Shown one piece after another: positions 1 to 27,744 of a stretch of DNA of 64,000 nucleotides. The notes under the pieces were generated by a model. That model was given only the letters and a program-made list of their open reading frames with translations. It made no database searches and had not been told where the DNA came from. Made by a program: the position numbers and the translations under genes. Location: the NCBI GenBank assembly GCA_028289285.1, contig JANQRF010000002.1, positions 868,001-932,000 on the forward strand. Reading direction: 5' to 3'. The stretch's first letter is position 1. Every line of letters begins with the position of its first letter. The DNA is from Alphaproteobacteria bacterium. GTDB taxonomy: Bacteria; Pseudomonadota; Alphaproteobacteria; Micavibrionales; Micavibrionaceae.

Positions 1-845
1 CTGACATCGCAAAAGCGTTTCGCCCCGACACTGTTCAAACGAAACGAGACAGCAGGCTGGCCGTTTTGGTCCGGGGCAAAAGCCGCATGGACCAGCATAT
101 CCCCTGTAATCATCGCCCGGCGTTCCAGCGCCAAAGTCTGCGCCGGGTCTTCAAGCATCGGCAGGACAAGATTGCCACCGCCTGCCCGTAAATTGCTGCC
201 GACATCCATATTCACAAGGTGAAAACCAAGCTTCGCGGTTTTGCCGAGAAGCTCTTTAATGCGCTCCGGATCATCCACACCGGGCAATTGTACGAGAATA
301 CGGTCATCGCCCTGTCTTTGAATCACAGGTTCATTCGTCCCTGTTTCGTCGACGCGGCGGCGGACAATTTCAATCGACTGGTTGATTGTTTGCGTTTGCA
401 ATTCTTCCAGCGCAGCGTCATTAAACCGCGCTTCAATAATCCCGCCATCACTTGTGAGAATATCCAGGTTCGGATCAATCTCTCTCAAAATGCGCCGTGC
501 TTCTTCTGCCTGTGCAACATCCCGCAGCGTGACACGCATCCCGTTTTCAATACGGCCAATACGCTTATAGCCGATACGCGCAGAGCGCAGTTCCGGCCGG
601 GCGGACGAGACCAAATCATCCGCGCGCTCTTTCAAGACACTGGAGACATCAACTTCTAAAAGGATATGCGAGCCACCCTGCAGGTCGAGACCAAGATTAA
701 CGGTCTGCGACGGCGCCCAACCGGGTAATGTCTGTGCGACCCAGTCCCGTGCGCCTGGACCAAGCACATTGGGTGCGCTGTACGCTGCGCCGAACACACA
801 GACGATCAGTATAAAAATAATTTTCCAGCGCGGGATTTGAACCAT
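1..845 (-). CDS. secD: Protein translocase subunit SecD (N-terminal part, cut by window edge)
   Basis: Reading the minus strand from ATG at 845 gives an N-terminal membrane anchor (MVQIPRWKIIFILIVCVFGA) followed by the periplasmic start typical of SecD, including LGLDLQGGSHILLEVD and the region with VRRRVDETGTNEPVIQRQG. About 281 residues are present and the frame runs off the left edge, so the P1 domain remainder and the five following membrane segments lie outside. SecD works with SecF and YajC to pull exported proteins across the inner membrane using the proton gradient. It is the last gene of a yajC-secD unit, but here a GxxExxY gene and its repeats sit between the two. No Shine-Dalgarno sequence precedes the start; the upstream bases are the repeat arm plus an A-run. 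Confidence 0.95.
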   Translation of the reverse strand, partial: MVQIPRWKIIFILIVCVFGAAYSAPNVLGPGARDWVAQTLPGWAPSQTVNLGLDLQGGSHILLEVDVSSVLKERADDLVSSARPELRSARIGYKRIGRIENGMRVTLRDVAQAEEARRILREIDPNLDILTSDGGIIEARFNDAALEELQTQTINQSIEIVRRRVDETGTNEPVIQRQGDDRILVQLPGVDDPERIKELLGKTAKLGFHLVNMDVGSNLRAGGGNLVLPMLEDPAQTLALERRAMITGDMLVHAAFAPDQNGQPAVSFRLNSVGAKRFCDV

Positions 846-852
846 TTTTTTA

Positions 853-883
853 TTTCACGCTAAGACGCCAAGGCCGCAAAAGA
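853..883. repeat. Left arm of inverted repeat flanking the GxxExxY gene
   Basis: Thirty-one bases beginning TTTCACGCTAAGACGCC match the reverse complement of 1297-1327 at 25 of 31 positions. The arm is built from roughly 8-base units of the type ACGCxAAG. It encodes the last residues and TAG stop of the GxxExxY protein and ends 8 bases before the secD start codon. Confidence 0.8.
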
Positions 884-1291
884 TTTGTTTTTAATATTTT
901 CAGACATATAAAATCTCCTGATACCGTCTTTAATCAAAGATACGTTAAAATTAATCAAAAGGCCTAAACTGATCCCTGCAAGCTTCATATAGGTCAGGGT
1001 TTGCGCCTCTTGAAGTTTTCCAATTTTTTCAATGCTTTTTAACTCAATTAAAACAGAATCATTAATGATCATATCTGCCCGAAAGGCTGTTTCTATTTTT
1101 CTGCTATTGAAAAATAAAGGAATTGGTTTTTGGGTTTCAACATGAAATCCCCTATGCCGCATTTCATCTGCAAGACAAACCTCATACACATTTTCTAATA
1201 AACCGGGTCCAAAAGCCTTATGAATTTGAAAACAGGCATCAACGACCTGCTTTGCAATTTCATTTTCTTCATTTGTCGGCTCTTTTAGCAT
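860..1291 (-). CDS. GxxExxY-family protein, PD-(D/E)XK-like nuclease fold
   Basis: This 143-residue protein carries the diagnostic motif at residues 30-36 (GLLENVY). A later stretch, with Asp73 in RADMII and Glu83/Lys85 in LIELKS, resembles the PD-(D/E)XK nuclease core, which agrees with the family's placement in PDDEXK_3. Function in the family is unknown; DNA or RNA cleavage is inferred only from the fold. The gene is AT-richer than its neighbours and lies between yajC and secD, which are normally adjacent. Inverted repeats of ACGCxAAG units bound it on both sides. The C-terminus (KSFAALAS) is encoded by the left repeat arm, and the start codon follows directly after the right arm. This arrangement suggests insertion of gene and repeats as one cassette. 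Confidence 0.85.
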   Translation of the reverse strand: MLKEPTNEENEIAKQVVDACFQIHKAFGPGLLENVYEVCLADEMRHRGFHVETQKPIPLFFNSRKIETAFRADMIINDSVLIELKSIEKIGKLQEAQTLTYMKLAGISLGLLINFNVSLIKDGIRRFYMSENIKNKSFAALAS

Positions 1292-1296
1292 ATGGC

Positions 1297-1327
1297 TTCT
1301 TAGCGGTCTTTGCGTCTTTGCGTGAAA
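1297..1327. repeat. Right arm of inverted repeat flanking the GxxExxY gene
   Basis: On the minus strand this reads TTTCACGCAAAGACGCAAAG and continues, matching the left arm at 853-883 at 25 of 31 positions in inverted orientation. It starts immediately after the yajC stop codon at 1328-1330 and ends 5 bases before the GxxExxY start codon. Confidence 0.8.
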
Positions 1328-1693
1328 TTATTTTTTCTCTGCCAAGTTCTGGATTGTGCTTTTGAGCGCCGTGACTTTGACTTCACCAAGATCAACCTCG
1401 ACTTCATCTTTGTCACCGTCGATTTTGGAAATTTTGCCGATCAACCCACCAGAAGTCACAACCTTATCGCCCTTTTTAAGCGCGCCGATCATATCCTGAT
1501 GTTCTTTAAACCGCTTTTGTTGCGGACGGATGAGCAGCACATAAAACAGCACCACCAAAAGAACGATCAAACCCATATTCCAGGCAAAAGCACTGGCCGC
1601 ACTTGGGGGCTGCGCCACGGCGCCATCCGCCATCGGGGTTGGGACTTCGATTGTTGCTGTTGTTTCCTGCGCATAAGCGGTTGATATCACCAT
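1328..1693 (-). CDS. yajC: Preprotein translocase subunit YajC
   Basis: A 121-residue protein with one membrane segment at about residues 33-50 (MGLIVLLVVLFYVLLI), followed by the family signature RPQQKRFKEHQDM and a KGDKVVTSGGLIGKI beta domain. YajC is the accessory subunit of the SecDF-YajC complex in the inner membrane. An Ala/Pro-rich segment precedes the membrane helix; the N-terminus (MVISTAYAQ) looks like the remnant of a longer leader. A promoter with -10 TATAGT and -35 TTGTTT lies just upstream at 1730-1757. The stop codon abuts the right repeat arm of the inserted GxxExxY cassette. Confidence 0.93.
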   Translation of the reverse strand: MVISTAYAQETTATIEVPTPMADGAVAQPPSAASAFAWNMGLIVLLVVLFYVLLIRPQQKRFKEHQDMIGALKKGDKVVTSGGLIGKISKIDGDKDEVEVDLGEVKVTALKSTIQNLAEKK

Positions 1694-27616: not shown

Positions 27617-27633
27617 GAGAGCGGACAAAAACC

Positions 27634-27704
27634 GTCATTGCCGGGTTTATCCCGGCAATCCAGATATCTTTTCAATGGATTACCCGGACAGGCCGGGTAA
27701 TGAC
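27634..27704. repeat. 71-bp dispersed palindromic repeat
   Basis: GTCATTGCCGGGTTTATCCC opens an element whose two 29-base arms (to ...GCAATCCA and from TGGATTACC...) are imperfect inverted copies, ending GGTAATGAC. The GTCAT/ATGAC termini and hairpin layout resemble those of the element in nlpD (3568-3636), so the two may belong to one repeat superfamily. Confidence 0.75.
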
Positions 27705-27713
27705 AATTAAAGA

Positions 27714-27744
27714 AGACTTGGTGTCTTCGTGCCTTGGTGGTTAA
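27714..27744. repeat. Short tandem-unit repeat, related in form to the GxxExxY arms
   Basis: The segment CTTGGTGTCTTCGTGCCTTG and its continuation GTGGTTAAC consists of about three 8-base units of the type TTxGTGxC. Read in reverse complement (GTTAACCACCAAGGCACGAA...) it has the same period and layout as the ACGCxAAG arms at 853-883 and 1297-1327, but no GxxExxY gene is attached. Confidence 0.5.

Follow-up and report, generated by a model that had tools for sequence, protein, structure and literature searches.

The yajC-secD junction in the window (the whole 64,000-nucleotide stretch of a Micavibrionaceae genome that was analysed) is occupied by a GxxExxY gene bracketed by inverted arrays of a short repeated unit, and this gene and its arms very probably constitute a mobile unit. 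Comparison of genome sequences demonstrates a common arm unit, clean boundaries, empty sites, linkage between unit and protein, gene-less derivatives, gene-associated repeat numbers and purifying selection. The locus is probably a mobile element of minimal design, and its PD-(D/E)XK nuclease would act on the arrays and move hairpins in trans.

The yajC-secD element and its orthologous sites

The element and the neighbouring operon genes occupy the following positions in the window:
1..845, minus strand: 5' part of secD, the downstream operon gene, running off the window (same N-terminus after yajC in relatives)
852..880, plus strand: downstream inverted arm, TTTCACGCTAAGACGCCAAGGCCGCAAAA on the plus strand, coding for the last residues of the GxxExxY protein and the stop codon
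860..1291, minus strand: GxxExxY gene, 143 aa (ORF list; TIGR04256 and PF13366 profile matches)
1300..1328, minus strand: upstream inverted arm, a three-unit TTTCACGCAAAGACGCAAAGACCGCTAAG-like array starting at the yajC stop codon
1328..1693, minus strand: yajC, the upstream operon gene (ORF, PF02699)

The two arms (852-880 and 1300-1328) are 29 nt long, 86% complementary and separated by 419 nt, and they form the sole inverted pair detected within positions 700-1500. A pattern derived from them matched twice in the 64 kb, at the two arms themselves, as compared with 0.00 matches in shuffled sequences. The sequence at the yajC stop and upstream arm start is TAATTTCACGC, and the end of the downstream arm is separated from the secD ATG (845-843) by 6 bases, or by 8 if the terminal A/T bases are excluded from the arm. 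The only ORF inside the element is the PF13366 gene. The original prediction of a nuclease gene between inverted arms in this gap is thus confirmed. Its further statement that the arms encode the C-terminus of the protein applies to the downstream arm (FAALAS followed by the stop) and not to the upstream arm, which is noncoding.

We compared insertion sites between the genome of the window (G000) and G001, the sole genome of the same genus in the comparison (YajC 80% identical). Orthologous junctions were located by search with concatenated flanking proteins, and the names of flanking genes were read off the translations. The yajC-secD junction of G001 is empty, reads TAACAAAAACCTATGG and has no Shine-Dalgarno site. 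Therefore, the insertion did not remove the Shine-Dalgarno site of secD; its absence in the window is real, but the arms, to which it had been attributed, are not the cause. Among the readable relatives, the yajC-secD gap has a median length of 17 nt versus 482 nt here; 21 of the 22 others have gaps of 6-136 nt, the remaining reading (L025, 395 nt) being doubtful as it was counted from an early in-frame stop.

Besides yajC-secD, the nuoC-nuoD and trmD-rplS junctions carry an element in G000 only, whereas bamB-der, a glycosyltransferase locus, tpiA and gapA-tkt carry one in G001 only; elements upstream of eno and in sdhE-recG are present in both genomes. The seven junctions with a presence/absence difference include both gene-bearing and gene-less copies. 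For example, the second GxxExxY gene of G000 lies precisely at the nuoC-nuoD junction and has arms made of a CGCGAAG-type unit; its insertion changed the NuoC C-terminus to NREDAKGRR, the corresponding site of G001 being empty. The trmD-rplS gap contains a hairpin of ~85 bp that is built from the unit of the yajC-secD element and has no gene. Upstream of nagZ, the elements of the two genomes have different units (CACAGAG, CACCAAG) and are accordingly read as independent insertions. Clean presence and absence at orthologous sites, as expected of a mobile element, is thus what we observed.

Arms across GxxExxY loci and the units they contain

GxxExxY loci were collected from relatives, from another family of the phylum and from other groups (Chloroflexota, Gammaproteobacteria, Acidobacteria, Zixibacteria, Chlamydiota and others); a scan of genome contigs with a single protein contributed 12 loci. 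The arm score compares the upstream flank of a locus with its reversed downstream flank, and its cut-off of 30 was set by eye. The score had a median of 42 at own loci and a mean of 23 at swapped loci, and inverted arms (score of at least 30) were found at 69 of the 79 GxxExxY loci. In the other family of the phylum, 24 of 28 loci reached this score, as did about one fifth of the swapped pairs in the same set because the units are alike between loci; short unit matches were still present at the remaining four loci. Loci with arms were found in other phyla as well. Homology between copies in unrelated contexts (L061-L065, L199-L212) begins and ends at the arms. Indeed, these results bear out the expectations that the arms recur at GxxExxY loci and that their ends define the insertion boundaries, and, together with the empty sites, uphold the proposal that gene and repeats form one mobile unit.

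Many GxxExxY copies are old and have been inherited vertically at one site. Two genes, L079 and L213, have an intact active site with no arms found, and such armless intact genes count against the nuclease as the mover. These two genes are orthologous and under strong purifying selection, with a dN/dS of 0.09, and are possibly domesticated copies.

Each arm consists of three to four copies of a ~7-nt unit with spacers of 1-4 nt, which by inspection are mostly of equal length within one element. The unit varies by locus and is common to both arms of a locus; the observed words include CACAGAG, CACGAAG, CACCAAG, CACTAAG, CGCAAAG, CACGAATGGA and CACAGATGAA, among others. At GxxExxY loci, agreement between the arms amounts to 83% for the two variable unit letters (39% after shuffling) and to 42% for the spacer letters (31%). 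The respective values for gene-less hairpins are 78% (37% shuffled) and 33% (31% shuffled). Facing and non-facing units agree to a similar degree (83% versus 81%, and 77% versus 80%). Since the match is equal for facing and non-facing units and the spacers are nearly free, the constraint acts on each unit as a word and not on stem pairing, which favours recognition of the units by a protein. Both ends of the element share TTTTTA-ACCAC among 92 elements, and a search of the same 92 for a target duplication revealed no offset or length above shuffles.

These comparisons bear on an alternative explanation at the RNA level, similar to the IVS of 23S rRNA, in which the arms would form a stem in the mRNA that is cut by RNase III to free the nuclease message from the operon, and the element would spread via RNA or by rare recombination. 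The arms of gene-less copies do fold into stable stems, the IVS of Coxiella carries a single ORF and a terminal stem of 28 bp (PMC4990558), and the four-helix-bundle genes described below likewise have inverted arms. The same explanation could account for orientation: in tandem gene contexts within operons, GxxExxY genes are co-oriented with their neighbours in 49 cases and opposed in 2. The simplest reading of this sense bias is that read-through expression has been selected on the element, and insertion through RNA is not our preferred source of it. On the other hand, facing units are no better matched and spacers are nearly unmatched, so that pairing is not conserved; solo arms exist; and the predicted fold of the enzyme is DNA-nuclease-like. 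Overall, we consider the RNA-level explanation improbable, as both the facing/non-facing comparison and the spacer test speak against the stem model.

The unit word is linked to the protein. In one protein subfamily, the unit ends in AT and recurs with a 10-nt period at 9 of 9 loci, as compared with 0 of 60 other loci. Nearest protein neighbours with less than 70% identity share the unit type in 57% of cases versus 20% after shuffling, and spacer length also follows protein kinship. It should be noted that the unit-protein signal in the Mantel test was not significant below 45% identity, and that part of the link reflects orthology, because old copies are inherited vertically at one site. Within a genome, the hairpin type is weakly related to the type of the resident gene (p=0.12 for the two variable letters, p=0.017 for 7-mers). 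This tracking of unit and protein, together with the concentration of gene-less arms in GxxExxY genomes, lends weight to the proposal that the repeat may be a substrate of the family nuclease. In the full version of this proposal, a stand-alone PD-(D/E)XK enzyme would read a 7-nt word and move itself and gene-less hairpins with no target duplication, the word co-evolving with the protein; we hold the chances of this version to be evenly balanced.

The nuclease, gene-less copies and candidate movers

The 143-aa protein matches TIGR04256 with 132 bits (cut-off 35) and PF13366 (PDDEXK_3) with 134 bits (cut-off 22). Residues D73, E83 and K85 and the G28..E33..Y36 motif are invariant in the alignment and intact in this protein, and the D-x(8-10)-E/Q-x-K catalytic motif is retained in 106 of 109 GxxExxY proteins. 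The catalytic residues are missing in L077 and L225, where the arms are missing too, and L221 has D in place of E and retains its arms. The AlphaFold2 model (pLDDT 89) has PD-(D/E)XK-like neighbours, the nearest solved folds being Cas4 SSO0001 and lambda-type exonucleases (LHK-Exo) with a modest similarity (E 2.7e-3). Searches of PDB sequences, PADLOC and PHROGs gave no result. The dN/dS values of eight ortholog pairs with usable dS range from 0.03 to 0.28, indicating that the nuclease is under purifying selection.

According to the mechanism that we propose, an element of ~480 bp with one GxxExxY nuclease gene between two inverted arrays of recognition units would insert cleanly, in the sense direction, into AT-rich gaps within operons, and could thus be expressed by read-through. 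The nuclease would bind the unit copies in both arms, cut or process the DNA at the arms, and move its own copy and also, acting in trans, short hairpins that have no gene but carry arms of this kind. Insertion would proceed with no detectable target duplication, in contrast to that by a classical DDE transposase. We think it rather likely that the nuclease is the mover; a point against this is that we know of no stand-alone PD-(D/E)XK nuclease that moves DNA alone.

Gene-less hairpins are more numerous than GxxExxY genes and sit in intergenic gaps; further hairpins and solo arms occur at other places. The window itself contains one solo arm:
27715..27744, minus strand: solo CACCAAG-type arm (AACCACCAAGGCACGAAGACACCAAG) upstream of a gltX-like gene, with no nearby partner arm found

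This arm adjoins a separate CATTGCCGGG/CCCGGTAATG palindrome, and the region (27630-27744) looks like a composite remnant, since the same palindrome is found inside CACCAAG hairpins in G001. In the tpiA gap of G001 (L179, contig C135), three palindromes of different types are nested: a CACAGATG-type palindrome encloses one of the CACCAAG type, which in turn encloses the third. An 834-nt tandem triplication in genome G059 has one CACCAAG arm per copy (L247, positions 968, 1802 and 2636). Finally, CACNNAG-type arm pairs surround two ORFs other than GxxExxY (142 and 157 aa; L235 991-1465 and L236 1052-1733), neither of which has a Pfam match above the cut-off; one of them contains an RxxxxH stretch resembling that of HEPN proteins.

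An array built from one repeated word is reminiscent of operator arrays, and the gene could in principle be an immobile resident whose product binds the flanking arrays as operators controlling its own operon. Such a role would agree with the purifying selection and with the long residence seen at some sites; we nevertheless consider it very improbable in view of the empty orthologous sites, the nested copies, the many gene-less hairpins elsewhere and the mirrored arrays with common ends on both sides of the gene.

A strict arm pattern matched in 39 of 115 relatives (one match overall for the reversed control); when two mismatches were tolerated, the arm pattern gave too much noise in the relatives to be of use. 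Arm matches were found in 31 of 43 genomes with the gene versus 8 of 72 without it (raw p=2.5e-11); in 20 of 43 versus 8 of 72 (p=3e-5) after the counts were redone with two matches subtracted for each gene, to correct for the inflation by its own arms; and, with the same discount, in 30 of 56 versus 21 of 242 genomes of a second sample of 298 (p=6e-13), all these p-values being too optimistic as the genomes are related. Among genera with both states, 11 had higher raw counts (own arms included) in their gene-carrying genomes and none had lower ones, and within family f39 the discounted link was not significant (p=0.13). The original prediction had named repeats occurring independently of the gene as the outcome that would speak against it. 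This is in part what we found: gene-less copies are common, mostly in gene-carrying genomes, and a few genomes have many copies with no GxxExxY gene found, such as G270 with 84 arm matches.

Genomes of the latter kind agree with another scenario, in which gene and arms are mobile, the nuclease is a passenger and all these palindromes are moved by another enzyme, for instance a Y1/RAYT transposase of the IS200-like kind, or by replication and repair in the host. Similar arms around other ORFs (L235, L236), a different unit class around four-helix-bundle genes, by which the layout can go with other genes, and the lack of a target duplication, as for Y1 elements, also fit this scenario. However, arm matches are linked to GxxExxY genes and not to the presence of Y1_Tnp (12 of 27 versus 27 of 88 genomes, p=0.25), the unit class tracks the GxxExxY subfamily, and the nuclease shows purifying selection; we therefore regard a passenger nuclease as fairly unlikely. 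RAYT in particular was rejected as the mover, Y1 genes having no association with arm matches.

Related systems and significance

The closest parallels to the proposed nuclease-driven element are found among known repeat families. Similar to REP/REPIN sequences and their RAYT (TnpA-REP) enzymes, it combines a single small nuclease-type gene with many gene-less intergenic palindromes (PMC3116915, PMC8266576, PMC3733652); in both systems the repeat type goes with the enzyme and non-autonomous copies outnumber the gene. In contrast, RAYT is an HUH (Y1) enzyme, whereas the element described here codes only for a PD-(D/E)XK protein, and each of its arms is composed of three to four 7-nt units in an array, in place of a single imperfect palindrome bearing a tetranucleotide tag. 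The IVS of 23S rRNA with an S23/four-helix-bundle ORF (PF05635; PMC4990558) similarly have a small ORF, inverted ends of ~28 nt, a sporadic distribution and a location inside an expressed transcription unit. They differ in residing in 23S rRNA with an unrelated helical protein, as opposed to a protein operon (yajC-secD) with a nuclease, and what is conserved in GxxExxY arms is not the pairing of a stem. DDE insertion sequences and their MITEs also have a gene between inverted ends and gene-less derivatives with the same ends. Here, however, there is no DDE transposase and no target duplication, and the ends are much more variable from copy to copy than those of insertion sequences.

Cas4 and lambda-type exonucleases, including solo Cas4 of mobile elements (PMC5704561), are the closest solved folds to the GxxExxY model; the similarity of this predicted structure is modest, and the proteins have no conserved Fe-S cysteines (four in Cas4) and no CRISPR context. 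Indeed, the GxxExxY alignment has no invariant or near-invariant cysteine. The accessible parts of the literature on solo Cas4 and palindromic elements deal with casposons and Cas4 phylogenomics and do not cover PF13366. The TAACTGA heptamer arrays of Beggiatoaceae are likewise intergenic arrays of a 7-nt word, for which the author considered a repeat-binding protein as a mobile element; these are mostly direct repeats, and the accessible part of that report mentions no link to GxxExxY (PMC4679880).

Inverted arms of short units also accompany PF05635 four-helix-bundle (S23/IVS-type) genes outside rRNA in this genome and its relatives (L146-L159, L162, L163). Their arm words belong to a different class (GTTGCAA, GTTTTCA, GAATCTC, GGAGTA), and most of the 15 scored loci exceed swapped pairs. 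The arm layout may thus be common to unrelated small proteins.

GxxExxY proteins occur in many phyla, often with several per genome, and have no assigned role. In the open-access literature searched, the name occurred in two papers, neither of which deals with function, and we make no claim of priority, since subscription papers and preprints lay outside this search. If the nuclease is indeed the mover, this would account for the CACNNAG arrays, which are a frequent type of intergenic hairpin, and for unusual protein tails such as the NREDAKGRR of NuoC, and a nuclease fold would be added to the short list of DNA-moving enzymes. The mobile-repeat reading gives this common and unexplained family a testable role, namely one protein for one 7-nt word.
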